Shown piece by piece: positions 13,538-55,785 of a stretch of 64,000 nt of DNA; positions within the stretch are counted from its first letter, which is position 1, and the number at the start of each line of letters is the position of its first letter. The notes below the pieces were generated by a model that had not been told where the DNA came from, did no database searches, and saw nothing but the letters and a program-made list of their open reading frames with translations. Position numbers and translations under genes: made by a program. Source of the DNA: Candidatus Ornithospirochaeta avicola (GTDB lineage Bacteria; Spirochaetota; Spirochaetia; Sphaerochaetales; Sphaerochaetaceae); NCBI GenBank assembly GCA_019113245.1, contig DXHU01000020.1, positions 1-64,000 of the forward strand, given 5' to 3'.

Positions 13538-14890
13538 ATGATAAATGATGATAATGCGATTACCAGCGGCGTTATCTGGAAACAACTGCTCATATTCTTC
13601 TTTCCAATACTTTTTGGAACCTTTTTCCAGCAGCTATACAACACAGCAGATGCCATCATTGTAGGACAGTTCCTTGGAAAGGAAGCTCTTGCTGCTGTGG
13701 GAGGAGGAACAAGCACAATAATAAACCTGCTTGTAGGATTCTTTACAGGAATAGCAACAGGATCCACTGTCATAATAAGCCAGTTCTTCGGCGCCCGAGA
13801 TATGGAAAGGACGAATAAGGCAATACATACTGCTATCGGGATTGCTTTAGCTGGCGGAATAATAATTGCAGGTGCAGGCTTTTTTACAACAGAATACATG
13901 CTAAACCTTATCGGCACTCCTGATGATGTAATGCCGCTTGCCGAAGAGTACATGAAGATTTTCTTCCTTGGAAGCGTGTTCAACACACTCTACAATATGG
14001 GATCCGGTGTCTTCAGGGCACTTGGAGACAGCAAGAAACCGCTGTATTTCCTGATTGTAAGCTGTGCTGTGAACATTGTTCTGGACATTCTTTTTGTAGG
14101 ACCGCTTAAAATGGGTGTTGCAGGAGCTGCATGGGCAACAATCTCCAGCCAGATGATTTCTGCACTGCTCTGTCTTGTTTACCTGAGAAAAGAGAAGGAA
14201 GAAATCCGCTATCATATTACAAAAACATCTCTTAATCCTTTCATGGTCAAAAGAACGATGCAGATTGGGCTTCCTGCAGGAATTCAGTCAGTGCTCTACA
14301 CTATAAGCAACCTGATCCTTCAGGCTCATGTCAACGGATTTGGAACAGATACTGCCGCAGCGTGGGCCGCCTATGGCAAGATTGACTCTCTTTTCTGGCT
14401 TGCAATAAACGCATTCGGCCTTGCAGTTACAACATTCATCGGACAGAACTACGGTGCGGGACTTTACGACAGAGTGAGAAAAGGCGTAAGGACAAGTGTT
14501 CTGATGGCAAGTGTGCTCACAATATCGCTTTCCATCCTCTTCATGTTCTTCGGGCGCTTCTTCTTAATGCTGTTTGCATCTGATGAACAGGTGCTTTCAA
14601 TTGGAATGAGCATTTTAATACTTTTAGTGCCCACATGGATCACATATATGCCGATTGAGGTGTTTTCCGGAGCGATGAGGGGGTGCGGAAAGACCTTGAT
14701 TCCGACAATAATAACATGTGTCGGAATATGCGGATTCAGGATAATCTGGCTTGAAGGCGCCACAAGAATACTCAACACGATTGGAACCGTGATGTTCTGC
14801 TATCCGTCATCATGGCTCCTTGCATCTGTTGCTCTTATTGTCTACTACAAGAAAGGAAATATTCTTAATGATCAGAACAAAAGAGTATAA
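13538..14890 (+). CDS. MATE-family multidrug or cation efflux transporter
   Basis: This 450-residue integral membrane protein has about 12 hydrophobic segments in two related halves. The first half carries FFPILFGTFFQQLYNTADAIIVGQFLG and the second begins near MQIGLPAGIQSVLYTISNLI, the repeat pattern of MATE (NorM/DinF-like) proteins. They export drugs or metabolites using Na+ or H+; the substrate cannot be told from sequence. CTGGAG lies 7 bases before the ATG. Its 3' end overlaps thrC by 19 bases in convergent orientation. Confidence 0.9.
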   Translation: MINDDNAITSGVIWKQLLIFFFPILFGTFFQQLYNTADAIIVGQFLGKEALAAVGGGTSTIINLLVGFFTGIATGSTVIISQFFGARDMERTNKAIHTAIGIALAGGIIIAGAGFFTTEYMLNLIGTPDDVMPLAEEYMKIFFLGSVFNTLYNMGSGVFRALGDSKKPLYFLIVSCAVNIVLDILFVGPLKMGVAGAAWATISSQMISALLCLVYLRKEKEEIRYHITKTSLNPFMVKRTMQIGLPAGIQSVLYTISNLILQAHVNGFGTDTAAAWAAYGKIDSLFWLAINAFGLAVTTFIGQNYGAGLYDRVRKGVRTSVLMASVLTISLSILFMFFGRFFLMLFASDEQVLSIGMSILILLVPTWITYMPIEVFSGAMRGCGKTLIPTIITCVGICGFRIIWLEGATRILNTIGTVMFCYPSSWLLASVALIVYYKKGNILNDQNKRV

Positions 14891-16125
14891 GAAGCATCAA
14901 TTACGCTGTATTCCTGCTTTTTCTCAAGCATTCTGAAAAGATTCTCCGGTATTGCTACAGCATTTCCTATAATGGGCTCAACTATGTCATAGAACTTTGC
15001 TGGATGGGCTGTTGCTACAACAATTGATGGCAGGCCAGCCAGGTATTTTCTCCTTACATATTCTCCACATGCAGTATGAGGACATATTGCATGCCTCTTC
15101 TCATCCCATTCTCTCTTGATAGTATCCCTTATCTCATCATCGCTGACGCTGTATGCAGAAACATTGTTCTTGAATTCCTCATAATCAGAAAAGAGATCAA
15201 AAAGGCGCTCAATATTGCTTGGTGCACCCACATCCATTGCATTTGCAAGAGTGGCTATGCTTGCCCTCTTTTTATATACACCGCTTTCAAGATAATCAAG
15301 GACTGTCCTGTTTGAATTAAGCGCAAGGGTTATGGATTTTATGGGAGAGCCCATCTTCTTTGCCCAATAGCATGCTGTTGCATTTCCCACATTCCCGCTG
15401 GGGATTATGAAAACAGGCATTTCATTGTAAGTCAGGAAATAGAGATAGGATGAATAGACATAATACACACATTGAGGAAGAAGGCGGGCAATATTTATGC
15501 TGTTTGCACTTGTAAGGCCCTCTATGCTCTCATCCATGAATGCATCCTTGACCATCTTCTGGCAATCATCGAAGCTTCCCCTGACAGCATAGCTCTTAAT
15601 GTTCTCTCCCCATGTTGTAAGCTGTGCCTGCTGGCGCTCTGAGACGCGGGAGAGCGGAAAGAGCACGCGCACCTCTATATTCTCTTTTTTGAAGAAAGCA
15701 GAGGCAACCGCCCCACCTGTGTCACCGCTTGTTGCGACAAGCACTGTCCTTTTCTCACCTCTTTTTTTGAGGATGTATTCCATGCATGAAGAAAGGAATC
15801 TGGCCCCGAAATCCTTAAATGCAGATGTAGGACCATATATCAGCTCAAGTGTGTCTGCTCCTCCATCCCTTCTTGTCGGAACTGGAAAATTGAAAGCTGA
15901 TATGCATATTCTCTTCATCTCATCCTCATCAATATCTTCAGAGAAGAAGGGATAAAGGACAGAAGAGGCAACTGATGCATAAGAAGAAAAATCGAGGGAG
16001 GAAAAATCGATGGAGGGGAAATACTCAGGAACAAAGAGTCCCCCGTCCTCTGCCAGGCCCATTAAAAGTGCATCTGAAGCACTGACCAGCTTCTTTTCTT
16101 TATCGCGCGTTGAATAGAATCTCAT
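14872..16125 (-). CDS. thrC: Threonine synthase
   Basis: This 417-residue PLP enzyme converts O-phosphohomoserine to threonine. It shows the fungal/E. coli-type layout: RFYSTRD at the N-terminus, the PLP lysine in YGPTSAFKDFGARF (near residue 105), and ATSGDTGGAVASAFF, the phosphate loop. The start at ATG 16125 has GGGGG five bases upstream. It lies 10 bases after the ThrA-like gene and is clearly its operon partner. A second, zinc-ribbon threonine-synthase-like protein is encoded at 62467. Confidence 0.95.
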   Translation of the reverse strand: MRFYSTRDKEKKLVSASDALLMGLAEDGGLFVPEYFPSIDFSSLDFSSYASVASSVLYPFFSEDIDEDEMKRICISAFNFPVPTRRDGGADTLELIYGPTSAFKDFGARFLSSCMEYILKKRGEKRTVLVATSGDTGGAVASAFFKKENIEVRVLFPLSRVSERQQAQLTTWGENIKSYAVRGSFDDCQKMVKDAFMDESIEGLTSANSINIARLLPQCVYYVYSSYLYFLTYNEMPVFIIPSGNVGNATACYWAKKMGSPIKSITLALNSNRTVLDYLESGVYKKRASIATLANAMDVGAPSNIERLFDLFSDYEEFKNNVSAYSVSDDEIRDTIKREWDEKRHAICPHTACGEYVRRKYLAGLPSIVVATAHPAKFYDIVEPIIGNAVAIPENLFRMLEKKQEYSVIDASYTLLF

Positions 16126-16135
16126 AAATACCCCC

Positions 16136-18532
16136 TTATACTCTTGAGCCAAGATATTCGCCAAGGCGAAGTATATCTGCGAACACACCTGCTGCAGTAA
16201 CCTGAGGGCCTGCACCCGGTCCTTTTATAACAAGAGGCTGGACTTTGTAGCGTTCTGTTGTAAACTGTATGACATTGTCTGTCCCACTTGCCTGAGAAAA
16301 AGGATGCTTCTCATCATAGAATGCAAGATCCACACGGCATTTTCCATCCTCCACACATCCGGTGTATCTGAGCTTTTTGCCGTCTTTTCTTGCCATCTCG
16401 TATAAAGATGAAATCTCCTCATCCATTTCCTCAAGCCTAATGAAGAACTCCTCAAGAGACACTTCCCTTAAATCCTCTGGTACAAGATTTCTCACAGGTA
16501 TCTCGCTTATCTCTGTCTTATATCCAAGCTCCCTGGCAACTATGCAGGTCTTTCTTGCAACATCCATTCCAGAAAGATCATCCCTCGGATCAGGTTCAGT
16601 ATAGCCCATCTCATATGCTTTTCTGACAAGATGGGAAAAAGGAAGAGAGCCATCATATGAGGAAAAAAGCCATGCCAGCGTTCCGCTGAATATTCCTTCC
16701 ACCTTCTTCACATCATCCCCGGTTTCTCTTAAATCCTTCAGCGTCACGATAATCGGCAGTCCTGCTCCGACAGTAGTCTCGTAATAGAACTTGCTTCCTG
16801 TTTTTCTGGAGATGTCAAAAAGGCTCTTATAATACTCATACGGAGCACTTGCTGCCTTCTTGTTAGGAGTCACAATATGAAATCCCTTTTCCATCAGAGA
16901 ATAATACTTGAGTGCAAGATCATTGCTTGAAGTGCAGTCAACTATGACCTTATGAGGATAATATGATGCACCCACATGCTCAAGGAAAATCTGTTCGTTG
17001 TATTTTATCTTCTGTCTGTCAAAATCCTCTCTCCAGGATCGGAGGTCGATTCCTTCATCAGAGAGCATCATGTAGCCACGCCTTGCAATTGCCCTTACTC
17101 TGAGATCAAGGTCAAATGTCTCTTTGAGTCTCACCCTCTCGCGTGCAAGCTGGTCAAGAAGAGTTCCTCCGATGTTTCCTGGCCCGTAAAGCCCGATTGA
17201 AAGAGTCTGCTCTGAAAGGAAAAATGTTGAGTGCAGGCTTCTGAGAGCTTTCTTTGAATCCTTCTCACTGATGACTGCGGATATATTCCTTTCACTGGAG
17301 CCCTGTGCGATTGCCTGCACATTTACCCCTGAGCGGGCAAGAGAGGAGAAAAAGAGGCCTGCAGTTCCTACTGAGCCGCTCATATTGTCGCCTACAACGG
17401 CAAGAATGGCCACATCATCAGCAATGGAGATATTGTTTATTGCTCCGCTTTCTATCTCGTACATGAATTCCCTGTTTATTGTGCGCTCAGCTTTCCTCCC
17501 ATCAGTCTTTCTGATTGCAAAACAGATTGAATATTCGCTGGAGGCCTGGGATATGAAAATGACACTTATCTTCTCTCTCTTAAGAGATGAAAAAAGACGT
17601 GCAGATATTCCCGGTATTCCGGAAAGCCCTCCTCCTTCTATGTTTACAAGCACTATGTTTCTGACAACACTGAAGGCACGTGCGTTCTTTTCCTTCCCGC
17701 TCTTTTTTCTCGATATTAAAGTTCCCTTGTTCTCGATATCTGAAAAATATCTTAAATAGATATCAAGTCCTTTAAGCTGTGCGGGGAGAAACGAGTGAGG
17801 ATGGATTATTGGAGCTCCGAAGAAGCTCAGTTCCGTTGCCTCCTCATAGCTCAGGCTCTCAATGACATGTGCTGAAGGCACATCCTTTATGCTTGCTGTG
17901 CGGAGAAGTGATTTTGAGTTCCAGAATACAAGATCAGCCTGAACCTTTGATGCAATCAATGATGCCTCATATTCACTTTCACCTTCATCTCTGACTTTTC
18001 CTGATGCATCTGAATAAGCAAGAGGAGACGGCATCTTGCCATACACAAATGAAACTTCATCAGACCAATCTTCCTTTTCAAGCGCACAGGCTGCATCAAT
18101 GAGGGAGGATGATAGAGAAAGCTGCAAGGCCCTGTTTTTCAAAATAAGACAGATAAAATATGAAGTAAGAGAATCAAGATAATCCTCTGCCTCAAGACTG
18201 GCCTTGCCTAGAAGCCAGATTACTCTTAAAACTTCCTCTGCCTTTAAAAAAGCAGAATCTATCTCATCAGCTGAGAATTCAGAGCTCTTTTTCACTACGT
18301 TCTCTGCAAGTTCCATATAGGCATTCCGCACTTTCTCCAAACTTGCCCAGAGTCTTTCATCTTTCTTCTCTGCGCTCCTAATAAGATGCGTGAAGGCAAG
18401 CTCTCCGTTTCTCACAGGAGAAATCACGAATACTTTATTATCACCATCTTCTTTCTGTATCTTGAAAAGTTTTTCGATGCTGCTCTTGCTTGTCAGCAGT
18501 GCCCCGTCAAGCGCGTGTACCTGGATTGCCAT
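16136..18532 (-). CDS. Fused aspartokinase-homoserine dehydrogenase (ThrA-like) with degenerate kinase half
   Basis: The 798-residue protein has the ThrA domain order: aspartokinase-like region (1-~300), two ACT domains (~305-450, e.g. ILVNIEGGGLSGIPGISARLF and VAILAVVGDNMSGSVGTAGLFF), then homoserine dehydrogenase (~455-798). The dehydrogenase half looks intact: GLYGPGNIGGTLLDQ for NAD(P), TPNKKA, ETTVGAGLPII, GIFSGTLAW and DPRDDLSGMDVARK. The kinase half lacks the N-terminal K-F-G-G-T-S motif (here VHALDGALLT), and the G-S-D-Y-S segment is replaced by GESEYEAS. I infer that it acts as a homoserine dehydrogenase with regulatory domains. AGGTGG lies 4 bases before the ATG, inside a small inverted repeat (18533-18554). 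Confidence 0.85.
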   Translation of the reverse strand: MAIQVHALDGALLTSKSSIEKLFKIQKEDGDNKVFVISPVRNGELAFTHLIRSAEKKDERLWASLEKVRNAYMELAENVVKKSSEFSADEIDSAFLKAEEVLRVIWLLGKASLEAEDYLDSLTSYFICLILKNRALQLSLSSSLIDAACALEKEDWSDEVSFVYGKMPSPLAYSDASGKVRDEGESEYEASLIASKVQADLVFWNSKSLLRTASIKDVPSAHVIESLSYEEATELSFFGAPIIHPHSFLPAQLKGLDIYLRYFSDIENKGTLISRKKSGKEKNARAFSVVRNIVLVNIEGGGLSGIPGISARLFSSLKREKISVIFISQASSEYSICFAIRKTDGRKAERTINREFMYEIESGAINNISIADDVAILAVVGDNMSGSVGTAGLFFSSLARSGVNVQAIAQGSSERNISAVISEKDSKKALRSLHSTFFLSEQTLSIGLYGPGNIGGTLLDQLARERVRLKETFDLDLRVRAIARRGYMMLSDEGIDLRSWREDFDRQKIKYNEQIFLEHVGASYYPHKVIVDCTSSNDLALKYYSLMEKGFHIVTPNKKAASAPYEYYKSLFDISRKTGSKFYYETTVGAGLPIIVTLKDLRETGDDVKKVEGIFSGTLAWLFSSYDGSLPFSHLVRKAYEMGYTEPDPRDDLSGMDVARKTCIVARELGYKTEISEIPVRNLVPEDLREVSLEEFFIRLEEMDEEISSLYEMARKDGKKLRYTGCVEDGKCRVDLAFYDEKHPFSQASGTDNVIQFTTERYKVQPLVIKGPGAGPQVTAAGVFADILRLGEYLGSRV

Positions 18533-18570
18533 ATTACCACCTTTTTCTGGTAATTATGACAGAAAAAAGT

Positions 18571-18601
18571 GAATAAAAAAAGCTCCAGAAACGGAGCTTT
18601 T
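18571..18601 (-). terminator. Rho-independent terminator of rpmB
   Basis: The stem AGCTCC/GGAGCT (18581-18586 and 18593-18598) is preceded on the plus strand by AATAAAAAA, which gives a U tract on the minus strand after rpmB. The plus strand also has a short TTTT. Confidence 0.85.
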
Positions 18602-18621
18602 CAGTTTAAAGAGCTGAAAGA

Positions 18622-18852
18622 TCAGACAATCTTCTCAATCTTTCCGCTTCTGAGGCATCTTGTGCATACCTTGATTGTTCTCGGTGTGCCATTGACCATT
18701 GTCTTCACTGATACAAGGTTAGGAAGGAAAACACGCTTCTTGGTAACACCGATATGCTGTCCGACACCGCCTGCCTTCTTTGCCTGACCTTTGCGAGGAA
18801 CAACAGATCCGCTGATTGTACCTTTTCCACAAATTTCACATCTTCTTGCCAT
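18622..18852 (-). CDS. rpmB: Ribosomal protein bL28
   Basis: This 76-residue protein is a basic component of the large ribosomal subunit. It is the zinc-binding form: CEICGK at residues 5-10 and CTRCL at residues 58-62 give four Cys ligands. The central VTKKRVFLPNLVSVK is the L28 signature. Start is preceded by AGGTGG at 9 bases. It has its own promoter and terminator, so it appears monocistronic. Confidence 0.95.
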   Translation of the reverse strand: MARRCEICGKGTISGSVVPRKGQAKKAGGVGQHIGVTKKRVFLPNLVSVKTMVNGTPRTIKVCTRCLRSGKIEKIV

Positions 18853-18910
18853 AGTTATATTCCACCTTAATAATTATTCCACTTAAGTCGGCTTTCCAGT
18901 CAACAGATTG

Positions 18911-18940
18911 AATATAGCAGAAAGCCTGTCTGTTTGTAAA
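18911..18940 (-). promoter_or_regulatory. Putative promoter of rpmB
   Basis: On the minus strand TTTACA (18935-18940) and TATATT (18911-18916) are separated by 18 bases, close to a sigma-70 type consensus. The -10 lies about 58 bases before the rpmB ATG. Confidence 0.55.
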
Positions 18941-18982
18941 TAGAGTCTTTCAAAATAAAGAAAAAAAAGCTATTTTCATATT

Positions 18983-19429
18983 ATGAAGAAAGAAATTACA
19001 CTGCTTCTTCCAGATGAGAGCGATACTCTTTATTTTGAACACTGGAAAAAGGATCTCTTTGCCTCAGCGTGCGATATCTATATGCGTCTCATTCCCCCTT
19101 CAATCATACTTGGAGAATCATATTCCACATTCTCAGACATAGACATTCCCCCATTTTTCACACTCAGCGATGAGATTATACACCCTGAGATAGGCACAAT
19201 TATCGAGATAGAAGAGAAAGATGAAGCTGAAAAAATAAAGAGAAAACTTAAAATAGAATATCCATACTGCGGTTTCTTTCTCACCCCCTCGCATGTTTGT
19301 GGCATAAAGATTGAAAAAAAGCAGATAAAGATCCGCTATATTGCAAAAGCTGAACTTGATGATAACTCATTCATCATCATTCAGAAAAAGAAGCTTTCGA
19401 GGGACAGAGAGAAGAAAGCGGGCAGCTGA
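18983..19429 (+). CDS. Uncharacterised 148-residue protein
   Basis: I do not recognise this protein. It has no signal peptide or membrane segment and is rich in Ile, Glu and Lys. The last residues are strongly basic (KKKLSRDREKKAGS). It is divergent from rpmB and its 3' end overlaps the convergent Nth-like gene by 53 bases. There is no clear ribosome site before the ATG, so the start or the gene itself is less certain than its neighbours. Confidence 0.5.
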   Translation: MKKEITLLLPDESDTLYFEHWKKDLFASACDIYMRLIPPSIILGESYSTFSDIDIPPFFTLSDEIIHPEIGTIIEIEEKDEAEKIKRKLKIEYPYCGFFLTPSHVCGIKIEKKQIKIRYIAKAELDDNSFIIIQKKKLSRDREKKAGS

Positions 19430-20006
19430 TGCATGAAGGATTGCGGCTGAAGCAGAACTCGCGTGCAAGGGCGTTGACAGCATAGCTCAAATGGCTCCAA
19501 ATACTGCTTTCATATTTCTCCTTTATCTCTCTATATACTCCATCCCTTGTGCCAGATGATGTAAGAGAAAGCCTCCTGGATGCGCGGAAGAAATGAGTGT
19601 CGACTATTACTGCAGATTCACCTAGAAAGGAGAGATAGCAGTTTGCACTTTTTATGCTTATTGCAGGAAGCTTTGTAAGCTCTGCTGTGTCACGGGGAAG
19701 CTCAAGATTATCTCTTTTCATCTCTGCAAGCTTCTTTATGCCCCGTGCTTTGTTCTTTTTCAGGCCTGCACTTTTTATGATTTCCTCTATCTCGTCAAGG
19801 CTGCAGTCTGCCAAGGCAGCAATATCCCCATAGTGCTCAAGGATGCTGTCTGTAATGCGCATTGCCATTTTGTCAGTGCTGCTTTGAGAGAGGATTACGG
19901 CAGTCATGAAAGTAAAATCCTCCTTGTATGGAAGAAAATGAGCAGTTTCAGGATAATATTCAAATAATTTATCTATAATTTCCAATTCTCTTGACAAGCA
20001 TTCCAT
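19377..20006 (-). CDS. Endonuclease III-like DNA glycosylase
   Basis: This 209-residue protein belongs to the helix-hairpin-helix base-excision family (Nth). The hairpin reads LPAISIKSANCYL instead of the usual LPGVGRKTA, but keeps the catalytic-type Lys, and VDTHFFR has the catalytic Asp. The C-terminal [4Fe-4S] motif Cys-x6-Cys-x2-Cys-x5-Cys is intact (CFSRNPSC...CPLSSLC). It probably removes oxidised pyrimidines, though the diverged hairpin could mean another lesion range. Its 3' end overlaps an unknown gene by 53 bases. Confidence 0.85.
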   Translation of the reverse strand: MECLSRELEIIDKLFEYYPETAHFLPYKEDFTFMTAVILSQSSTDKMAMRITDSILEHYGDIAALADCSLDEIEEIIKSAGLKKNKARGIKKLAEMKRDNLELPRDTAELTKLPAISIKSANCYLSFLGESAVIVDTHFFRASRRLSLTSSGTRDGVYREIKEKYESSIWSHLSYAVNALAREFCFSRNPSCISCPLSSLCPSKASFSE

Positions 20007-42251: not shown

Positions 42252-43268
42252 TCAGAAATAGATTGTTTTATCTCTTCTTCTGCTGAATGTTCCAATGATT
42301 CTAGCCGGACTTCCGAACTCAGCTATGAAAGAAAGGGCATCCTCTTCATTCATGGCAAGAGCAAGTCCTCCTGAAGTCTGTGGATCAAAGAGAATATCCT
42401 CTTCTTCCCTTTTAAGTCCGCTTCTGTTTTCCACCTTATCCTCAAGATACTCACGGTTTGAATATGCACCTGATGGAATAAAGCCGAGTCTTGCTGCATC
42501 AATTGCTTCTTTTATATAAGGAACTGAAGAAAAATCAAGATCAAAGGAAAGGGATGAAGAGCTTGCCATTTCATAGATATGGCCTAAAAGAGAAAATCCT
42601 GTTATATCAGTTGCGGCATGCACATCGTATTTTATTGCAATGTCCCTGGCCCTCTTATTGAGAGTTAGCATGCTTGAAAGAGCTTCCACTTTTGAAGAGG
42701 AAGAACACTCATCTGCCTTGGATGCCATGTTTATGATTCCTACCCCTATCTTTTTCGTAAGCACCAGGACATCGCCATCATGTGCACCGCAGTTTCTCCA
42801 GAACCTGTCTTTTTGGGCAAATCCCGTGACAGCAAGGCCGAATTTTATGCTCTCATCGCTTATCGTATGTCCGCCTGCAATCACAACCCCGGCTTCCATT
42901 GCCTTATCCCTTGCCCCCAGTATTATGTTCTTGAGGATGCCAAGATCCATGCAGGAAGGGAAAAGGGTTATATTCATCGCAACTGAAGGTTCTCCGCCCA
43001 TGGCATATATATCAGAAATGGAATTTGCAGCACTGATTGCTCCGAATGTATACGGATCATCGGCAACAGGGGGAAAGAAATCTACAGTCTCTATCAGAAC
43101 CCTCCCATCTTCAAGATCATAGACAAGAGCATCATCGCTTGTCTCAAAGCCCACAAGCAGATTCTCTTTTCTTTCCATCTTTATTGAAGAGAGCACCTCT
43201 TCAAGCTTTCCAACTGGAAGCTTTGCCGCGCATCCTGAAGTCTTTACTAGTTTTGTAAGCTGTACCAT
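42252..43268 (-). CDS. selD: Selenide, water dikinase
   Basis: This 338-residue enzyme makes selenophosphate from selenide and ATP. The active-site segment is KTSGCAAKLP near residue 12; here the key residue is Cys, not selenocysteine, and Lys follows. Other SelD signatures are DALVYDLEDGRVLIETVDFFPPVADDPYTFG, IYAMGGEPSVAMNI, VIAGGHTI and DITGFSLLGH. No selA, selB or tRNA-Sec is seen in the window, so it probably serves the labile selenium cofactor of molybdenum hydroxylases. It overlaps the DUF3343 gene by 22 bases. Confidence 0.95.
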   Translation of the reverse strand: MVQLTKLVKTSGCAAKLPVGKLEEVLSSIKMERKENLLVGFETSDDALVYDLEDGRVLIETVDFFPPVADDPYTFGAISAANSISDIYAMGGEPSVAMNITLFPSCMDLGILKNIILGARDKAMEAGVVIAGGHTISDESIKFGLAVTGFAQKDRFWRNCGAHDGDVLVLTKKIGVGIINMASKADECSSSSKVEALSSMLTLNKRARDIAIKYDVHAATDITGFSLLGHIYEMASSSSLSFDLDFSSVPYIKEAIDAARLGFIPSGAYSNREYLEDKVENRSGLKREEEDILFDPQTSGGLALAMNEEDALSFIAEFGSPARIIGTFSRRRDKTIYF

Positions 43269-43492
43269 TTTCCATCCCTGAAGGAGAAAACACCTTCTGC
43301 TTTTATGCTGTTCTTAAGCCTCTGATAATCAGAAGAGGCAATTAATAAAGCGCTCTGGCAGGATGAAGAGATTTCTCTTGGGGTTGGAATGATCCGGGCC
43401 TGGAGAAAGAGCTCTTTGGCCTTCAACTCTGCCTTGAGCGTCTGATAATGCGAGGTGAATGTCAGGACTGTTCTCTGATCATAAGACGCCAT
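43247..43492 (-). CDS. DUF3343 small protein
   Basis: This 81-residue protein matches the DUF3343 family, often encoded beside selenium metabolism genes. The N-terminal half reads VLTFTSHYQTLKAELKAKE, then IIPTPREISSSCQSALLIAS with one Cys at a position shared by the family, and a C-terminal FSFRDGKWYSL. It may carry sulfur or selenium on that Cys, which is inference. It overlaps both the TusA-like gene (31 bases) and selD (22 bases), so the four-gene set is translationally coupled. Confidence 0.8.
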   Translation of the reverse strand: MASYDQRTVLTFTSHYQTLKAELKAKELFLQARIIPTPREISSSCQSALLIASSDYQRLKNSIKAEGVFSFRDGKWYSLQN

Positions 43493-43674
43493 AGCATTCC
43501 TTCTTCTTTTATTTCCACAGCATATCCTGTCGCCTCAGCATAACGCTTGACGTTCTCCTTGCTTGCAACATTGTCAACAAGGATATCAATTCCATCCTTG
43601 TTTTCTTTTAAAGCCTTCTTTGCCATTATCACCGGCTCAGGGCAGCTTAAGCCTTTCGCATTATATTCATTCAT
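43462..43674 (-). CDS. TusA/YedF-like sulfur or selenium carrier
   Basis: This 70-residue protein is a stand-alone TusA (SirA) domain. The family motif Cys-Pro-x-Pro is present in LSCPEPVIMAKKAL near residue 10. YedF proteins of selenium clusters usually have a second C-terminal domain, which is missing here. The Cys would carry a persulfide or perselenide. AGGAGG lies 7 bases before the ATG. The gene overlaps the YedE-like gene by 8 bases. Confidence 0.88.
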   Translation of the reverse strand: MNEYNAKGLSCPEPVIMAKKALKENKDGIDILVDNVASKENVKRYAEATGYAVEIKEEGMLWRLMIREQS

Positions 43675-44758
43675 TTTCTTTCCTCCTGTTCTTTATAGTT
43701 ACAGTTGCGGCAATAAGGAAAAGAACCGCGATGAGAATAATAAGAACAACCTTTCCTCTCAATGACGGGCCTCCTATGCTTTCAGCGCTTGCAGCTGATG
43801 ATGCAAGTGAGAAATTATGGGCAAATGCCGCTCCTATGAAAAATCCAAGTGTTGATATAGCACTGTCAGAGTTTCCCTCTCCTGCAAGAATGAGCTGCCT
43901 TAGCGGACAGCCGCCTATGAGGACAGAACCGAAGCCAACAGCATATAAACCGAGAAGATTCCATAGCTGTGCCTGATGAGCAACGCTCTGAGAGGAAAAA
44001 CCAAGCTTAAAGGTGCCTGTTAACAGAGAGAACACAAGATTGAAGATGAAAACAGAAAGCAGAGCAAAAAGGAGCGTAAAGTCCTTTATAAGGAATGTAT
44101 CCCTTATTCCTCCTGCAAAACACATTCTTGATTTCTGTGCGCATGCTCCTACAGCAAGGCCTGCAAGAAGCGAAAGAAAAACCGGAGCTCTCATTGATCC
44201 CGGACCGGAGGTGCTGAATGCCAGAATGGAAGGAAAAGCTATGAGAATTACAAAGAATACTATATTTATGAGGCTGATTGCACTTCCTTCAAGCGCATTC
44301 TGCTTTTCAGCTCTTCCAAGAGAGAACCCGGCATTGAGGAATAAGCATCCTGTGAAGATTCCGAGAATGAATCCGATAAGCCCTACAAAGGCGTTTAAAT
44401 CCCCTGCAGAAAGACGCAGCACCATGCGTAGCGGGCAACCGAGGAACACCAGAGCACCCACAGCTACAATAAAGCCTATTGCAAAGCGAAGGAAAGGAGA
44501 ACTGCCTCCGCGAGGCCTGAATTCGCCCGTAATAAGAGAAATTGCAAAAGATCCAAGCACAAGGCCGATTATCTCGGGGCGCATGTACTGGACAGTCTGT
44601 GTGCTGTGAAGCTTCACTGATCCTGCGATATCCCGGATGAAGCATGCGATACAGAATCCCATGTTCCCAGGGTTGCCAAAATAAACGAGAAGAGTTGAGA
44701 ACAAAGCCACAACAAGACCGGTGAGAAGCAAAAGTATTTTATCTTTCTTTAAGCTCAT
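43667..44758 (-). CDS. yedE: YedE-like selenium/sulfur transport membrane protein
   Basis: This 363-residue membrane protein has about ten hydrophobic segments and belongs to the YeeE/YedE family. Two copies of the Gly-Cys-Pro-Leu-Arg motif occur, in LGCPLRMVLRLSAGD (near residue 105) and GGCPLRQLILAGEG (near residue 280), along with CFIRDIAG and CFAGGIRD. This doubled Cys layout is that of the selenium-associated YedE proteins. It probably moves a thiosulfate- or selenium-type compound across the inner membrane. It heads the yedE-tusA-DUF3343-selD operon and is divergent from the cysteine desulfurase. Confidence 0.88.
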   Translation of the reverse strand: MSLKKDKILLLLTGLVVALFSTLLVYFGNPGNMGFCIACFIRDIAGSVKLHSTQTVQYMRPEIIGLVLGSFAISLITGEFRPRGGSSPFLRFAIGFIVAVGALVFLGCPLRMVLRLSAGDLNAFVGLIGFILGIFTGCLFLNAGFSLGRAEKQNALEGSAISLINIVFFVILIAFPSILAFSTSGPGSMRAPVFLSLLAGLAVGACAQKSRMCFAGGIRDTFLIKDFTLLFALLSVFIFNLVFSLLTGTFKLGFSSQSVAHQAQLWNLLGLYAVGFGSVLIGGCPLRQLILAGEGNSDSAISTLGFFIGAAFAHNFSLASSAASAESIGGPSLRGKVVLIILIAVLFLIAATVTIKNRRKENE

Positions 44759-44770
44759 GACATGATTTTA

Positions 44771-44796
44771 CCATTGTAAAACTCATTTAACAATGG
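44771..44796. promoter_or_regulatory. Perfect interrupted palindrome between yedE and the cysteine desulfurase
   Basis: CCATTGT (44771-44777) and ACAATGG (44790-44796) are exact inverted arms separated by 12 bases. The element lies in the 59-base gap between two divergent genes and could control both. The TetR-type regulator encoded at the end of the desulfurase operon is a candidate to bind it. A similar 26-bp element lies before the ABC operon. Confidence 0.65.
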
Positions 44797-44805
44797 AAAA
44801 TATGC

Positions 44806-44811
44806 TATAAT
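44806..44811 (+). promoter_or_regulatory. Putative -10 element of the cysteine desulfurase operon
   Basis: A consensus TATAAT ends only 6 bases before the ATG at 44818. Transcription would then start at or next to the ATG, giving a leaderless message, which agrees with the lack of any ribosome site. No good -35 is present. Confidence 0.45.
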
Positions 44812-44817
44812 CATCCT

Positions 44818-45951
44818 ATGAAACGCATCTATCTGGACAACAGCGCTACAAGCTTTCCAAAAGCTCCCCACCTTGCAGAAAAACTCAGAGACTATGTTTT
44901 AAACGATGATGGAGCAGTTAACAGGACATATTCTGAAGCCTCAATAAAGAATCTTGAGATGATTGCAGAGCTGAGAGTAAAGCTATGCCGTTTTTATAAC
45001 GGGCCATCCGATGAATGCGTAATATTCACCCATACCATAACAGAAGCTCTCAATACACTTATAAATGGCTACTTTTCAAAAGGCGATCATATCATAATCT
45101 CCCCCTATGAACATAATGCGGTATTAAGGGCTCTGACACTGCATGAAATTGAGTACTCACCTTTGCCCCTGTGCGAGAACAACAGAGTCGACACAGCATC
45201 TGCAGAAAGCCTGATAAGAAAAAACACAAAGGCAATAATCTGCACGGCAGTATCAAATGTGAATGGAAGCATAGTTGATTTAAAAGCACTTGGAGAAACA
45301 GCATCAAAGCATAGCCTGAAATTCATCGTTGATACTGCTCAGGCAAGTCCATATATTGACATAGACATGAAGAGGGACAATATAACTGCACTTGCATTCA
45401 CAGCCCATAAGGGATTCATGTCAATTGAAGGAAGCGGTGGATTCATAATCCAGAAAGGAGAGGAGAAAAACATTAGAGTGCTTATCGCCGGAGGGAGCGG
45501 AAGCGACAGCGGCAATCCTTATATGCCTGAAATGCTTCCGGATAAATTTGAAGCAGGAACATTCTCAACCCCTTCTCTCTTCTCATTCTCTTACTCACTT
45601 GATTATGTATTATCCCATCTTGATGAGATAAGGAAAAAGAGCAAGGAGAATACGGAGTATTTGAAGCAGGCACTGATGAGGATAAAAGGAATAAAAGTTG
45701 TTGAAAGCGGAAATGAGGAAGATATCATTCCTCTCATTTCAGTAACATCTGAAAAGGATTTATCATTAATTGCACTCTCTCTTTCTGAAAAATGCGGAGC
45801 GGAAGTGAGAGTGGGGATTCACTGCTCACCCCTTGCACATAAGGCACTTGGCACATACCCTGAAGGTACTCTGCGCTTTTCACCATCGTGCTTCACAGCA
45901 AAGGAAGAGCTTGATGAAGTAATAAACGCGTTAAAGGAGATAGCAGGATGA
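44818..45951 (+). CDS. Cysteine desulfurase family protein of selenium clusters
   Basis: This 377-residue class V PLP enzyme belongs to the EF2568-like branch seen beside selenium-dependent hydroxylase genes. It opens with IYLDNSATSFPKAP; the PLP Lys is in FTAHKGFMSIEGSGG (near residue 200), and the reactive Cys is in VGIHCSPLAHKALGT (near residue 340). It probably removes sulfur or selenium from (seleno)cysteine and hands it to a carrier. It overlaps the XdhC-like gene by 4 bases. It lacks a ribosome site and may be leaderless. Confidence 0.92.
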   Translation: MKRIYLDNSATSFPKAPHLAEKLRDYVLNDDGAVNRTYSEASIKNLEMIAELRVKLCRFYNGPSDECVIFTHTITEALNTLINGYFSKGDHIIISPYEHNAVLRALTLHEIEYSPLPLCENNRVDTASAESLIRKNTKAIICTAVSNVNGSIVDLKALGETASKHSLKFIVDTAQASPYIDIDMKRDNITALAFTAHKGFMSIEGSGGFIIQKGEEKNIRVLIAGGSGSDSGNPYMPEMLPDKFEAGTFSTPSLFSFSYSLDYVLSHLDEIRKKSKENTEYLKQALMRIKGIKVVESGNEEDIIPLISVTSEKDLSLIALSLSEKCGAEVRVGIHCSPLAHKALGTYPEGTLRFSPSCFTAKEELDEVINALKEIAG

Positions 45952-46892
45952 GAGAGTATTATAAGAAGCTTGATAATATACTCAGAAAGAACAGCGCAAT
46001 AAGAAAGGTAAACATCTCAGGAGAAGCTCTTTTCTCCCTTGATGGTGAAATCTTGGCTGCAACAGAATCCTTTACTGATAATGAAAAGACCTTCTCCTTT
46101 ATCACAAGCTATATGCCGACAATATGTATGCTTGGAGCCGGGCATGTTGCAAAAGCAGTGTTTGACACGCTGTCGCCTCTTGGATTCAGGTTCATAATAA
46201 TAGATGACAGGAAAGAGATACTCACTGAAAACAGATTCCCTTCGGCAAGCCTCATCTGCTCTTCTTTTTCAACCCTTGATTATGATTTTTGCAAAGTCAC
46301 GAATCCATATTTTCTTGTTTTCACTCATGCCCATCTTCACGATGAGGAAGCTCTCTCATATGTGCTGAAATTCAAAAGCCATTACTATGGCATGATAGGA
46401 TCAGAGCGCAAGATTGCACTTACATATTCAAACATGGAAAAGAAAGGATTTTCTCGTGAGACTCTTGATTCAGTGCACTCCCCTGTCGGAGTCAAGATAA
46501 ACGCAGAGACACCTGAAGAGATTGCTATATCAATTGCGGCAGAAATTATTGCTACATACAGAAAAAACAAGAAGACAGTATTTATTTCTTCGGACCTTAT
46601 CAAGAAGATTATTGAAATTGATGAAGATGCTGTACTGGCAGAGATTGTCTCGAAAAAAGGCTCTGCTCCGCGCGGGGCCGGATCATTCATGATAATAACA
46701 CAATCATCCTTCTTCTTCACAATCGGAGGAGGATCTCTTGAAAATCAGGTGATCAGCGATGCACGCAGTATTCTTGAAAACAGGAATGACAGCATGCTTA
46801 AATATTATGACATGGAGGAGAAAGGCGGACTGGATATGGCCTGTGGAGGAAAAGAGGAAATCATGTTCCGCCTGATAAGAAAAGATGTATGA
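45948..46892 (+). CDS. XdhC/CoxI-type molybdenum hydroxylase maturation protein, swapped domain order
   Basis: This 314-residue protein combines the two domains of XdhC, but in reverse of the usual order. The Rossmann-like XdhC_C domain comes first (ICMLGAGHVAKAVFDTLSPLGFRFIIIDDR near residue 50, then HAHLHDEEAL and YYGMIGSERK). The CoxI domain comes last (AEIVSKKGSAPRGAGSFMII, FTIGGGSLENQVISDA near residues 235-280). XdhC proteins sulfurate (or here perhaps selenate) and insert the molybdenum cofactor. It overlaps the desulfurase by 4 bases and the regulator by 8. Confidence 0.88.
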   Translation: MREYYKKLDNILRKNSAIRKVNISGEALFSLDGEILAATESFTDNEKTFSFITSYMPTICMLGAGHVAKAVFDTLSPLGFRFIIIDDRKEILTENRFPSASLICSSFSTLDYDFCKVTNPYFLVFTHAHLHDEEALSYVLKFKSHYYGMIGSERKIALTYSNMEKKGFSRETLDSVHSPVGVKINAETPEEIAISIAAEIIATYRKNKKTVFISSDLIKKIIEIDEDAVLAEIVSKKGSAPRGAGSFMIITQSSFFFTIGGGSLENQVISDARSILENRNDSMLKYYDMEEKGGLDMACGGKEEIMFRLIRKDV

Positions 46893-47379
46893 CCCGAGCT
46901 ATGTTAAAGAATTCAAGAAAAATGAGCTTTCTTCTTTTGACTATGCGTTGCTGGATGCATACTGTGCTTTGAAAGAAGAGGGAGAGAAGGAAATTTCTGT
47001 TCGTCTTCTTGCGGACAGGGCAGGAGTTGAGAGAAATGATTTTTACAGATGCTATGACAGCACTCTTTCTTTTATTGAAAGAGTCGAGGAAGACACAGTT
47101 GCAAGAATGAATGATCTTGCATCGGCAGAGGATGAAAGCTATTATGCACGCCTGTTTTCCTTCTTCAGGGAAAACGATAAGGAAATTATGGCAATTTTAG
47201 ATTATCCTGCATACCGCGAGGACCTCATATCATCAATTGCGCTGCATTTTACTGCTGATGATAAAGAAGGCAGCCAGATGATATACACGAAAGCCAGCAT
47301 AGTGTTCTCGACATTCTATGCATACCTGCACTACTCAATTGATGTTGATTTCTCTATTCTCAGAGATTTTGTGTCCTGA
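46885..47379 (+). CDS. TetR-family-like transcriptional regulator
   Basis: This 164-residue helical protein has an N-terminal helix-turn-helix of TetR type (SVRLLADRAGVERNDFYRCYDSTLSFIERV, residues ~34-64), followed by a ligand-type domain that is shorter than in most TetR proteins. Its ATG lies 8 bases inside the XdhC-like gene, so it is part of the desulfurase operon. It is the only obvious DNA-binding regulator in the selenium-molybdenum region and may bind the 26-bp palindromes at 37423 and 44771. Confidence 0.75.
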   Translation: MYDPSYVKEFKKNELSSFDYALLDAYCALKEEGEKEISVRLLADRAGVERNDFYRCYDSTLSFIERVEEDTVARMNDLASAEDESYYARLFSFFRENDKEIMAILDYPAYREDLISSIALHFTADDKEGSQMIYTKASIVFSTFYAYLHYSIDVDFSILRDFVS

Positions 47380-47387
47380 TGAAAAAA

Positions 47388-47410
47388 CGGAGAGACTGCT
47401 GATCTCTCCG
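47388..47410. terminator. Bidirectional terminator between the regulator gene and xdhD
   Basis: The 8-bp stem CGGAGAGA/TCTCTCCG (47388-47395 and 47403-47410) has GAAAAAA on its left and CTTTCTTTTT on its right, so it can end transcription on both strands. It lies between two converging stops. Confidence 0.9.
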
Positions 47411-47422
47411 CTTTCTTTTTCC

Positions 47423-50302
47423 TTATTTTATCTTTCCTAGTTCTCTGAGTATCTTCTCAGGCGTTATAGGCCAGCTCCTTACATGAGCACCGCATGCATC
47501 TGCTATGGCCATTGCGATAGCAGGCGCTGCTCCGTTTGTCGCTATCTCACTGATACTCTTTGCTCCAAATGGTCCGTAATCATCACAGACATCGACAAAG
47601 TCTGAGATGAAAATAGGAGGAACCTCATCCACCATCGGAACGCCGTAGGATGTAAAGTCATCTGTAAGACACTTTCCGTTTTTGTCTATGACAAGATCCT
47701 CATAAAGCGTATGACCGATGCTCTTCAAGGCTGCACCGTACATCTGGCAGAGTGCAAGCTCCGGGTTTATAGGAGTTCCGCAGTCCTGGATTGCAACAAA
47801 CTTCTCAACTTTCACCTCGCCTGTGTTCACATTTACCAGGACCTCAGCAAAATGAGCACCGTAAGGAACAGCAAAATTCGGTGTGGTGAAACATCCCTTT
47901 CCTGTTATTGCCCCGCGTCCTGCTCCAGAATATGCCTCATGCGCGATTTCACGGAATGTAAGAACTTTTCCGCTTTTCCTGCTCACGACTTTTTCCGGCC
48001 ATTCAAGCTCCAGGCTCTCTTTGCTCTCACCCATCTGCAAGGCAGCCTCAGATAAAAGATTCTCCTTCAGATTCTTTGCCGCAAGAAGGCTTGCGTTTCC
48101 TGAGAAATATGTTCCGCTCGATGCATAAGCTCCTGTATCAAAAAGACATGCATCGGTATCACCAGAGACAACAGAGACCCTCTCAAGAGGCATCATCAGT
48201 ATTTCAGATGCACACTTTGCACTGATTGTATCAAGTCCTGTTCCAATATCCGCACCGCCTGAGAGGACAAGCACAGAACCGTCTGTGAGAATCTTCATTT
48301 CAGCATTGGAGTGATCCAGGCCAGGCAGTCCTGATCCCTGCTGAATCGGGGCAAAGCCCTGACCCCTCTTCCACTCAGAATTCTCATCATTCTTTTTCTT
48401 GCCCCATCCTATCAGACTGGCACCCTTATCAAGGGCATCAAGCAATCCGCATGATCCGACAGGAACGACAACACCTTCTCTTCCCTCTCCCAGACCCTTG
48501 AGGATTTCAAGCATGTAGCCGCGCTTTACAAGATTCTTCTTTGCCAGTTCAAGCGGATCCATACCTATCTTCTCAGCCAGCTCTCCGAGAGCAGAAATTA
48601 TTGCAAAATATCCTTTTGGAGCTCCATAGCCCTGATATGCTCCTGTTGGAGGAATATTTGAATAATATGTTGTGAGATCATAGTACATGTTCTCTACTGC
48701 AAAAAGTGGAAGAGTCTTGCTCGATGCATTCATCGGCACTGTTAGACAGTGGTTTCCGTACGGTCCGGTATTTGCTCTCACATCCATGTAAATCGCATTA
48801 ATCTTTCCATCCATTGTGGCACCCATCTTTACCCTTATTCTCATCGGATGACGGGTGGAGTTTGCATGAAATTCCTCTGCTCTTGTGTTACGGTAGTAAA
48901 TGCTTTTGCCGGTAATCCATGTAAGATAACCGCACAAATCCTCTACAAGGATATCCTGTTTTGAGCCATAGCCTCCGCCGACACGCTCCTTTATCACATG
49001 CACTTTGTGCTCATCAATCGAGCACACCCAAGCAACTATTCGTCTTACATGGTATGGAACCTGAGTGGATGCATGTATGATAAGGCGGCCGTTTTCCATT
49101 CTGGAAAAACACACATGGGGTTCAAGCGGTGTGCACTGCACCTGGCTTGTCTGGTAAGTCTGGTCCACAATGGCATCGCTTTCATCAAATGCCTTCTCAA
49201 CATCCCCGATTCCGCCATGGGCTCCTGCGGCAATATTGTGACGGATATCTGCATGAAGGGGGAACTGATAAATCACTTTGCCATCCCTCTCATCACAAAT
49301 TCGGTTGTACTCATCAAGATTATCCGGAGCACCTGAAACATACTCAACCTTCCCGTTATGGACCAGAGGGGCACCCTCTGCCATTGCCTCTTCGACTGTA
49401 AAGACAGCATCAAGAGGCTCATAGGTTACCTTGATAAGGCTCAAAGCATGTTCGGCAATCTCTTCATTTCGAGCAACAACGGCGGCAACTCTGTCACCGA
49501 CATGACGCACCTTGCGGTTTATAAGCTTCCTGTCATACGGGCTTGGCTCAGGATTTCCCTGCCCTGCCTGCATGTAATACACATCCGGAACATTGAAGCA
49601 TGTGAGTATCTTGACAACTCCATCAAGCTTTTCTGCCTCTTCTGTATCTATGCTCTTTATATATGCATGTGCATAAGGGCTTCTTAAAATCTTGAGCACA
49701 TAGGATGAGGGAAGCACTTTGTCTTCAGTAAATACTTTCTCACCTTTCACAAGTGCAGCGGCATCTATCTTTGTCTTTGCCTTGCCGACAAAACGCATTT
49801 CATTTCTAAAGGACGGAGAGACCTTACTCCTATATTCTCCCCACTTCCTCTTTTCCTGCACAAGGCGCACTGCGAGGAAGAAATGCTCATATCCTGCATC
49901 TCGGATGAAAAGCCCTGAAAGAGCCTCTTTGACATCATCTTTCGTTGCATCCGGCTTTCTTTCAAGGAGATTGGTAATGACAAGGGCCACAGCTGGTGAG
50001 TTGTATGCGCTCTGGACAACTCCGGATGCAATCATGGCCTCCTGAACATCATTTATTTTTCCTCCAAGAGAAAGGCTCTCTGCAGTAAATACTTCCTTAT
50101 TCATCACACGGGAGGCGACAATGAGATTTGAATACACACACCTGCCGTCAACTATTACAGTATCTGATCCTGTAAAGCCTTCCGCATCATCGCTATCCCT
50201 TACTGACGCACAGCCAAGGCGGTAAAGGAGATTTCTAAGTCTTTCATCCTCCCTTGCCTCCACATTCATGTTCTCGCCATTAAGTCTGAAGATGAGATTC
50301 AC
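47423..50302 (-). CDS. xdhD: XdhD-type molybdenum-binding hydroxylase subunit
   Basis: This 959-residue protein matches E. coli XdhD (956 residues) end to end. The first ~150 residues have the shape of a [2Fe-2S] ferredoxin plus helical domain, but the cluster Cys are absent (the loop reads SDDAEGFTGSD), as in E. coli. The Mo-domain motifs follow: GGGYGSKQDILVE, RANTGPYGNH, GAYQGYGAPKGYFA, GGADIGTGLDT, and the active-site Glu region GPFGAKSISEIATNGAAPA. It is proposed to form a complex with YgfM and YgfK and to depend on selenium. It starts with GTG behind GGAGG and overlaps the FAD gene by 4 bases. Confidence 0.93.
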   Translation of the reverse strand: MNLIFRLNGENMNVEAREDERLRNLLYRLGCASVRDSDDAEGFTGSDTVIVDGRCVYSNLIVASRVMNKEVFTAESLSLGGKINDVQEAMIASGVVQSAYNSPAVALVITNLLERKPDATKDDVKEALSGLFIRDAGYEHFFLAVRLVQEKRKWGEYRSKVSPSFRNEMRFVGKAKTKIDAAALVKGEKVFTEDKVLPSSYVLKILRSPYAHAYIKSIDTEEAEKLDGVVKILTCFNVPDVYYMQAGQGNPEPSPYDRKLINRKVRHVGDRVAAVVARNEEIAEHALSLIKVTYEPLDAVFTVEEAMAEGAPLVHNGKVEYVSGAPDNLDEYNRICDERDGKVIYQFPLHADIRHNIAAGAHGGIGDVEKAFDESDAIVDQTYQTSQVQCTPLEPHVCFSRMENGRLIIHASTQVPYHVRRIVAWVCSIDEHKVHVIKERVGGGYGSKQDILVEDLCGYLTWITGKSIYYRNTRAEEFHANSTRHPMRIRVKMGATMDGKINAIYMDVRANTGPYGNHCLTVPMNASSKTLPLFAVENMYYDLTTYYSNIPPTGAYQGYGAPKGYFAIISALGELAEKIGMDPLELAKKNLVKRGYMLEILKGLGEGREGVVVPVGSCGLLDALDKGASLIGWGKKKNDENSEWKRGQGFAPIQQGSGLPGLDHSNAEMKILTDGSVLVLSGGADIGTGLDTISAKCASEILMMPLERVSVVSGDTDACLFDTGAYASSGTYFSGNASLLAAKNLKENLLSEAALQMGESKESLELEWPEKVVSRKSGKVLTFREIAHEAYSGAGRGAITGKGCFTTPNFAVPYGAHFAEVLVNVNTGEVKVEKFVAIQDCGTPINPELALCQMYGAALKSIGHTLYEDLVIDKNGKCLTDDFTSYGVPMVDEVPPIFISDFVDVCDDYGPFGAKSISEIATNGAAPAIAMAIADACGAHVRSWPITPEKILRELGKIK

Positions 50303-50961
50303 TCCTCACCTCCTTTTTGTCTTTCGAGATTCACAAGATATCTCTTATACTCTGCAGATCCATACTCATCATCCGAGAATGTTATATCATCCTCATTTAT
50401 GAATATACCTTCGTTCTTCACAGCAACAGCTTCATTGACTGCTCTTGCATAGTTTATAACGCTGTGCATATGGCTTGCACGGCGGTAGCACTTCTGCTGA
50501 ACTTTCATATTCCTAACTATTACAGAAATGATGAGAAATTCATCATCAGAAGCAAGATAATCGACAAGCTTTATTCTCTTTTCTCCTTTATCCCAGACAA
50601 GAAGTTCTGCGTCACTTGCTATCAAAGACGGAAGCAGATAGGAAGAATCAAGCTCGCTTGCGATATTGCCTCCGATTGTCGCACTGTTTCTAAGCTCCCA
50701 GGATGCCATGTAGGCAGCGCTTTCTTTCAAATAGGAGGGAACAAGCAAGCTTTCAATTAAATCATTGAACGTCGCCATTGCTCCGATTATTATGCTCTCC
50801 CCTTCTTTAGAAATTTCTTTAGGGACAACAGCTGAGATATCAGCAACAACATCAGGAAGAACATCAGATTCTCCCTTGTTCCTCATGATCTGGGTTCCTC
50901 CTGCAAGGAATACTTTCTCTTTTGCTGCTTCAGCTATGCTGGAAGGTATAACTATTCTCAT
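50299..50961 (-). CDS. ygfM: YgfM-like FAD-binding subunit
   Basis: This 220-residue protein has the FAD_binding_5 fold of molybdenum hydroxylase medium subunits but is short, as YgfM proteins are. FLAGGTQIMRNK (near residue 20) is the FAD loop, and LRNSATIGGNIASELDSSYLLPSLIA (near residue 95) the second. It should pass electrons between XdhD and a partner such as YgfK. The ATG at 50961 forms an ATGA overlap with the xdhB stop; a GTG 12 bases upstream is possible. Confidence 0.82.
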   Translation of the reverse strand: MRIVIPSSIAEAAKEKVFLAGGTQIMRNKGESDVLPDVVADISAVVPKEISKEGESIIIGAMATFNDLIESLLVPSYLKESAAYMASWELRNSATIGGNIASELDSSYLLPSLIASDAELLVWDKGEKRIKLVDYLASDDEFLIISVIVRNMKVQQKCYRRASHMHSVINYARAVNEAVAVKNEGIFINEDDITFSDDEYGSAEYKRYLVNLERQKGGEE

Positions 50962-51821
50962 ACTACTCCACACTCATCAGATTGTTTTATCTTCTCAATG
51001 AAATAAATCAGCATGCGCCTGGTGGTGTTTCTCCTGTACTCAGGCATTGCATGCGGACTTAATATGCTGTCATACTTTGTAAGGAACTGAGGAAGGACTG
51101 AATCAAGCTCATCTCTTTTCTTTCCAATCAGAATGCTCTCAACTTCCCTGCTTCTCCTGACTTTCGGTCCTGCTGCCCCGCTGGATGCACGGAAATCCTT
51201 AATCACGCCGTCCTCAACTAAGGCCAGAACAGAAAGCGAAAGCTTTGATATCGCATTTGCTCTCCTTGTTCCTATTTTCCTGTACATCAGGTAGTTGGCC
51301 TTCACCTCAGGAATCCTTATCTCTTTTATGATTTCGTTTTCTTTCAGCTTTGTTTTCTTGCTTCCTGTGATGAATTCATCGACAGGCATCTGATGCTCTC
51401 CATCCTGGCTGACAAGCACAAGAGATGCATCAAGAAGAATAAGTGGCTGAGGAAGATCTCCTTTTGGAGATGCGTTTGCAATATTTCCTCCGATTGTCGC
51501 GCTGTTTCTAAGCGCAGGTGCGCCCATCCTAGATGCGGCCATTCTCACATGATAGGGAACAAGCGGGGATGATGCGATTTCTGCCGGTGTTGACAGTGCC
51601 CCGATTACGATTGTCCCATCATCTTCTTTCCTTATTCCCTTCATCTCATCCAGGTTCGAGATAATCAGGACAGGAAAAGGCATATCCGGGTTCAGACAAG
51701 GAGCTGTGCGGTACTGGACCATCAGATCAGTTCCTCCAGCAAGGACCTTTGCACCGGTTTCGGCTTTTATCTTCAAAGCCTCAGAAAGGCTTTCTGCGAC
51801 ATATACATTCATTTTCTCCAT
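50958..51821 (-). CDS. xdhB: Xanthine dehydrogenase FAD-binding subunit
   Basis: This 287-residue protein is the medium subunit of a molybdenum hydroxylase. KVLAGGTDLMVQYRT is the first FAD loop, IGALSTPAEIASS follows, and LRNSATIGGNIANASPKGDLPQPLILLDA (near residue 115) is the pyrophosphate loop. A C-terminal CO_deh_flav_C domain (TRRANAISKLSLSVLAL onward) completes it. AAAGGAG lies 7 bases before the ATG. It overlaps the ferredoxin gene by 13 bases and the YgfM-like gene by 4, within a five-gene operon. Confidence 0.93.
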   Translation of the reverse strand: MEKMNVYVAESLSEALKIKAETGAKVLAGGTDLMVQYRTAPCLNPDMPFPVLIISNLDEMKGIRKEDDGTIVIGALSTPAEIASSPLVPYHVRMAASRMGAPALRNSATIGGNIANASPKGDLPQPLILLDASLVLVSQDGEHQMPVDEFITGSKKTKLKENEIIKEIRIPEVKANYLMYRKIGTRRANAISKLSLSVLALVEDGVIKDFRASSGAAGPKVRRSREVESILIGKKRDELDSVLPQFLTKYDSILSPHAMPEYRRNTTRRMLIYFIEKIKQSDECGVV

Positions 51822-54416: not shown

Positions 54417-54472
54417 AACTGCTCCATTAGTTTTTTCTTTATATAATGAGAAGTTACTATCCTTCTGCTTTC

Positions 54473-54505
54473 ATTATACACCATTTGGGCAGATTGTGGG
54501 CAAAT
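54473..54505 (-). promoter_or_regulatory. Putative promoter and repeat element of the xdh operon
   Basis: On the minus strand TATAAT (54473-54478) is preceded at 19 bases by TTGCCC (54498-54503). The spacer region has a near-palindrome ATTTGCCCA-N5-TGCCCAAAT (54483-54505) that is also a direct repeat of TGCCCA at an 11-base step. A regulator bound here would overlap the polymerase site. Confidence 0.55.
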
Positions 54506-54517
54506 AATAGTTGAAAC

Positions 54518-55784: not shown

Positions 55785-55785
55785 G

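Follow-up and report, generated by a model that had tools for sequence, protein, structure and literature searches.

The thrA-like gene at positions 16136-18532 (minus strand, ATG start, 798 aa) of the window, that is, of the whole 64,000-nucleotide stretch of DNA analysed here, encodes a protein of ThrA-like order: an aspartokinase-like domain, two ACT domains and a homoserine dehydrogenase (HSD). The original prediction held that the kinase half has lost its K-F-G-G-T-S and G-S-D-Y-S motifs, is inactive and may serve as a regulatory scaffold, which raises the question of whether this domain can still be a kinase and, if not, what it is kept for. Our preferred answer, to which we assign a probability of roughly three in four, is that the protein is a threonine-regulated HSD which carries a pseudo-aspartokinase scaffold and is descended from a bifunctional ThrA.

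The thrA-like gene and its missing kinase motifs

An AGGTGG element is located 5' of the ATG of the thrA-like gene. The open frame comprises 805 codons, and as just 7 in-frame codons lie 5' of the ATG, a miscalled start would not conceal a KFGGTS motif; internal stops are absent as well, and a wrong start or frameshift masking the kinase motif was ruled out. Similarly, an assembly error was ruled out, since 110 genomes show the same motif state. The gene for threonine synthase, thrC (14872..16125, minus strand, ATG start), is located downstream in the same operon, as had been proposed, with a gap of 10 nt between the thrA-like stop and the thrC ATG at 16125. thrC immediately follows the thrA-like gene on its 3' side in 106 of 107 family loci. 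The preceding gene resembles that of ribosomal protein L28 (by eye), and no RNA leader above the gathering score was found 5' of the thrA-like gene within 14500-19500, where there was one chance-level match. In the source genome (G000; 1.5 Mb, 23 contigs) no second homoserine dehydrogenase was found, leaving the thrA-like gene as the sole HSD.

The pseudo-aspartokinase domain comprises residues 1-283 (17684..18532, minus strand) and has a predicted aspartokinase fold without catalytic or ATP motifs; its Pfam AA_kinase match is weak and confined to a C-terminal piece of the kinase domain (residues 169-259, 32.8 bits). E. coli K-12 ThrA, MetL and LysC served as reference sequences for the motif alignment. 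Where KFGGTS would be expected (residues 6-11; 18500..18517, minus strand) the protein reads HALDGA, with A7 as the equivalent of K5, and in place of R[GN]GSD(Y/F)S (residues 183-192; 17957..17986, minus strand) it reads EGESEYEASL, with E187 as the equivalent of D208. In the alignment to E. coli ThrA, K5 is replaced by A, G7 by D, S10 by L, R125 by L, E127 by S, R204 by E, D208 by E, D228 by S and G231 by L, with G8 and S207 unchanged, so that the predicted absence of both motifs is borne out. The aligned positions (K5, E127, R204, D208, D228 and others) are established as the catalytic residues of aspartokinases. Replacement of the Lys, the Glu, the Arg and both Asp, here and throughout the family, also agrees at the level of sequence with the predicted inactivity, and a whole-domain fold match restored no catalytic Lys or Asp, with the residue correspondence taken from the sequence alignment. 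Together, this strongly supports the view that the kinase half would be unable to phosphorylate aspartate by the known mechanism. H6 was considered as a new motif and dropped; the consensus with 30 intact ThrAs likewise has a His before the Lys.

The remainder of the protein is intact, as judged from profiles and predicted structure and in line with the original prediction. The two ACT domains (residues 284-440; 17213..17683, minus strand) carry the motifs SQASSEYS and QGSSERN and score 139 bits with ACT_9; their model matches 6mx1 with Z 21.9 and 1.6 A over 155 aligned residues, and of 101 family loci, 99 carry the first of these effector-site motifs and 98 the second. The HSD with its NAD-binding and catalytic domains (residues 441-798; 16139..17212, minus strand) scores 66.1 bits with PF03447 and 162.5 bits with PF00742 (Homoserine_dh), and its model matches 1ebf (Z 42.9, 2.1 A, 346 aligned).

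Distribution and origin of the motif loss

The family survey covered 139 genomes, 138 with some match and 110 with a ThrA (E up to 1e-70, hand count); motifs were read in 107 loci from 105 family genomes and in the remaining five ThrA-bearing genomes. Alignment with the ThrAs of these relatives demonstrated that the loss is shared by family members, KFGG and R[GN]GSD being absent in 110/110 ThrA-bearing genomes. Full length is kept in 101 of the 107 loci, spanning 13 genera, and six loci (genera g22, g10 and g7) are without most of the N-lobe. One ThrA with an internal TAG (L117, from G040) is among the 101 full-length loci, has an N-terminus unscored in the motif alignment and is not part of the 102-sequence column comparison described below. 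Two genomes contain two ThrA copies each (L018/L113 in G053, L132/L136 in G006). In genus g7, G023 and G025 possess a truncated, divergent ThrA alongside LysC (L061, L062 and L070), and in G023 a second HSD-like frame adjoins LysC.

The motif loss is common to two sister families (L080, L081 and L082). Sister-family L080 has kept the Lys; G7, G8, S10, E127, R204, S207, D208 and D228 are gone. ThrAs from other families of the same class have retained K5, G7, G8, E127, R204, S207 and D208 in 24/24 cases, and the same-class outgroup ThrA L098 is changed at S10 and D228. A scan of public genomes yielded 80 loci, of which the 12 from spirochaetes are all without the motifs and the 68 others keep them, the exceptions being L259 and L267 with N at D228. 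The catalytic Lys is kept in 67/67 scorable non-spirochaete ThrAs (67 of 68, L259 being without the N-terminus in its open frame).

A tree was built on the ACT and HSD part from 75 rows, namely 35 pseudo-ThrAs, 22 intact ThrAs of the same class and 18 others, sampling 33/107 family loci, 2/3 sister-family loci and 22/24 same-class intact loci. All pseudo-ThrA rows are located on one side of a branch with a support of 97/99, which was present in 96% of 200 bootstrap trees; L060, L061 and L062 are long branches whose exact placement is unsure. The tree is compatible with a single loss of the kinase motifs. From these comparisons, the kinase-dead ThrA appears to be an ancient, clade-wide state of single origin, with N-lobe deletions in three genera. 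Recent decay of the kinase half was ruled out by the tree and by the dN/dS values given below.

The retained domain and the separate LysC

AlphaFold2 modeling yielded a pLDDT of 89.5 for the whole protein, and the kinase domain alone, modeled from 13 dead sequences only, reached a pLDDT of 87.4 and a pTM of 0.87. The domain model matches threonine-bound M. jannaschii aspartokinase (3c1n) over residues 3-286 with Z 26.1 and 2.4 A (269 aligned), suggesting that the pseudo-kinase domain keeps the aspartokinase fold without the kinase motifs while being fused to another enzyme. The whole model is at 2.9 A from 3c1n and at 4.3 A from substrate-bound 3c1m and 2hmf; for E. coli AKIII the values are 3.5 A for the T-state and 4.7 A for the R-state. 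This closeness to inhibitor-bound structures would fit a domain locked in a catalytically inactive conformation, but may reflect a modeling habit.

The closest species pair, the source genome and G062, gives dN/dS values of 0.06 for the pseudo-kinase, 0.01 for the ACT part and 0.02 for the HSD. The corresponding medians are 0.074, 0.034 and 0.043 over 65 pairs, which are non-independent, the last ones being saturated, and eight of which involve a non-family ThrA. Comparing 102 pseudo-ThrAs with 92 intact ThrAs (26 and 57 effective sequences), we found that 61 kinase-region columns are conserved in the intact proteins and that 18 of these are still kept in the pseudo-ThrAs; as a control for chance, 37/39 ACT columns and 79/82 HSD columns are kept. 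Fifteen of the 18 fall in residues 204-271, within a retained C-lobe segment (residues about 204-272; 17717..17923, minus strand) which includes LSYEEATELSFFGAPIIHP. In the pseudo-kinase, sixteen columns have become conserved anew, including E59, W62, E66, E99, W106, E187 and N205, and the column of E187 is 100% Glu across the 102 pseudo-ThrAs after weighting. The low dN/dS, the fold recovered from dead sequences and the newly conserved residues together argue that the kinase domain is not junk.

The further aspartokinase expected elsewhere was indeed identified as a single LysC (G000:C1:8778-10175, 466 aa) with KFGGSS, SRGE and RGGSD, which is an aspartokinase by NCBIfam. It is one of five amino-acid-kinase matches in the source genome, the three beyond ThrA and LysC having been assessed solely from length and context. 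A LysC separate from ThrA occurs in 105 of the 110 ThrA-bearing family genomes (E up to 1e-33, hand count) and was not found in five (G009, G032, G057, G062 and G104), including the closest relative, G062, which is 95% complete in 20 contigs. Motifs were checked in 23 LysCs from pseudo-ThrA genomes, 20 from the 105 family genomes with LysC and three from the sister families: KFGG[ST]S, RGE and RGGSD are present in 23/23 and the ACT motif QG[AS]xE in 0/23. In nine LysCs from other family genomes QG[AS]xE is present in 9/9; most of these have a separate HSD-like frame (Hom) alongside, and the genome of one (L070, genus g7) also has a truncated ThrA. Pfam ACT_9 matches 17/23 LysCs of the former group versus 9/9 of the latter, PF01842 0/23 versus 9/9, and both groups score best in PRK09034 among the models scanned. 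With Pfam, an ACT domain was not detected in L160-L163 and L166. Short LysCs of 330-349 aa without ACT (L160:309-1298, L161:1948-2973 and L162:1767-2813) belong to genera g22 and g10, which also have a ThrA without the pseudo-kinase N-lobe. In the LysC tree the Hom-linked LysCs form one clade and the others do not, so that the ACT-motif contrast between the groups rests on few events. Judging from sequence, kinase and sensing seem to be divided between two genes, LysC and ThrA.

No ThrB above cut-off was found in the source genome, the sole match being IspE-like (by eye); thrB_alt was not found there, nor was hyp_Hser_kinase among the 139 family genomes. ThrB above cut-off occurs in 3 of 40 spirochaete genomes tested. 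A restriction of thrB absence to genomes with a dead kinase was ruled out, as outgroups with an intact ThrA kinase lack ThrB too. The homoserine kinase step, beside the thrC that is present, may be performed by an unrecognised kinase. Elsewhere in the window, 62467-63672 encodes what looks by eye like another PLP protein of the threonine-synthase type, away from the thr operon. A cluster at 42252-60373 with a selenophosphate synthase-like protein (N-terminal TSGC), a YeeE-like transporter, a cysteine-desulfurase-like protein and molybdenum-hydroxylase subunits resembles a selenium-dependent purine pathway (all by eye).

Interpretation and relation to known systems

Given that the fold is kept, that selection is purifying and that the ACT domains are intact, a regulatory-scaffold role is the best reading. 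The aspartokinase half would have turned into a pseudoenzyme that keeps its fold and the C-lobe segment leading into the ACT domains; the ACT pair would sense threonine, and the pseudo-kinase would keep these domains and the oligomer arranged such that threonine bound there can switch the HSD. Carbon for the HSD would arrive from LysC and aspartate-semialdehyde dehydrogenase, and the kinase might have become dispensable after a PRK09034-type LysC took over the supply of aspartyl phosphate. Against a scaffold, HSD activity in general needs none, since monofunctional Homs exist, and g22, g10 and g7 have lost the greater part of the N-lobe, so that most of the fold is dispensable there. The five of 110 genomes that show no separate LysC, G062 among them, also speak against this explanation.

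The same N-lobe deletions, the retention of 18 of 61 conserved kinase columns and the faster evolution of the pseudo-kinase relative to ACT and HSD over the 65 pairs would suit a relic, in which the kinase half is dead weight under pruning and the C-lobe remainder is needed for ACT-HSD folding. However, a dN/dS well under 1, the conservation gained in 16 columns (E59, W62, E66, E99, W106 and E187 among others) and the full length of 101/107 family loci across 13 genera make us regard a relic as unlikely. It might also be speculated that ThrA and LysC have split one ancestral allosteric enzyme, LysC keeping the kinase and ThrA the ACT sensors, and that ThrA, through its pseudo-kinase and ACT part, associates with LysC as an allosteric subunit, the pseudo-kinase docking on LysC. 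If true, threonine sensed by ThrA would control pathway entry and the homoserine branch. The LysCs of pseudo-ThrA genomes, with intact kinase motifs throughout and neither QG[AS]xE nor a PF01842 match, as opposed to the 9/9 separate-Hom LysCs, and with five members in which no ACT domain was detected by Pfam, point in this direction. Yet independent events are few, the Hom-linked LysCs forming one clade, ACT_9 still matches 17/23, so that LysC may simply have another effector, and the genera with the shortest LysCs, g22 and g10, also have a shortened ThrA pseudo-kinase; we see in such a pairing no better than an outside chance.

A new ligand or catalytic role of the domain, for example as the missing homoserine kinase, is very improbable: the failure to find ThrB, thrB_alt or hyp_Hser_kinase and the newly conserved polar and aromatic residues are in its favour, but ThrB above cut-off is also missing from most outgroups of the class in which the ThrA kinase is intact, so that the gap seems to predate the loss, and the ATP-site motifs are gone and the N-lobe is deleted in three genera. 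That the domain is a still-active aspartokinase with shifted residues is more improbable again. The fold is retained, E187 could replace the catalytic Asp and sister-family L080 keeps the Lys; against this, K, G, E, R and D were lost together, and a dedicated LysC co-occurs in 105/110 genomes.

With bifunctional ThrA (NF006959/PRK09436) the protein shares the domain order, the ACT and HSD sequence and the thr operon setting, and it scores 768.7 bits with NF006959 at a curated cut-off of 726, the match spanning residues 184-793. It differs in being without the kinase catalytic motifs, the step presumably being performed by the separate LysC. Because the motifs which define the bifunctional class (KFGG[ST]S, GE, R[GN]GSD and TDVxG) were found neither here nor in the family, the sequence argues against filing the protein as a bifunctional enzyme; automated annotation and metabolic models would credit it with an absent kinase. 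The expected catalytic outcome is the same as that of monofunctional Hom, which in general is without the N-terminal aspartokinase-like and ACT part. The single origin, the intermediate L080 with its Lys and little else, and the later deletions make the formation of a pseudo-kinase traceable step by step. The state of LysC opens the question of the pathway's threonine sensor to direct testing.

A paper on P. aeruginosa ArgA reportedly deals with restoring its ancestral kinase activity. The closest precedent for pseudo-ThrA is the amino-acid-kinase domain of N-acetylglutamate synthase (ArgA/NAGS), which belongs to the same superfamily, is likewise joined to a different enzyme and put to allosteric use, and holds an allosteric arginine site (PMC5146650). 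There the kinase-fold domain itself binds arginine, whereas in pseudo-ThrA sensing presumably falls to the ACT pair; the two also differ in kinase branch, partner enzyme and origin. CASTOR1, the mTORC1 arginine sensor, has ACT domains that resemble those of aspartate kinases and is a further case of such domains sensing amino acids outside an aspartokinase (PMC5187391); it consists of ACT domains only, acts in animal signalling and is not itself an aspartate-pathway enzyme. No report of a kinase-dead ThrA was found in the literature searched, which left out most subscription journals. What is new here compared with these systems is a presumably regulatory pseudo amino-acid kinase in the aspartate pathway, derived from ThrA.
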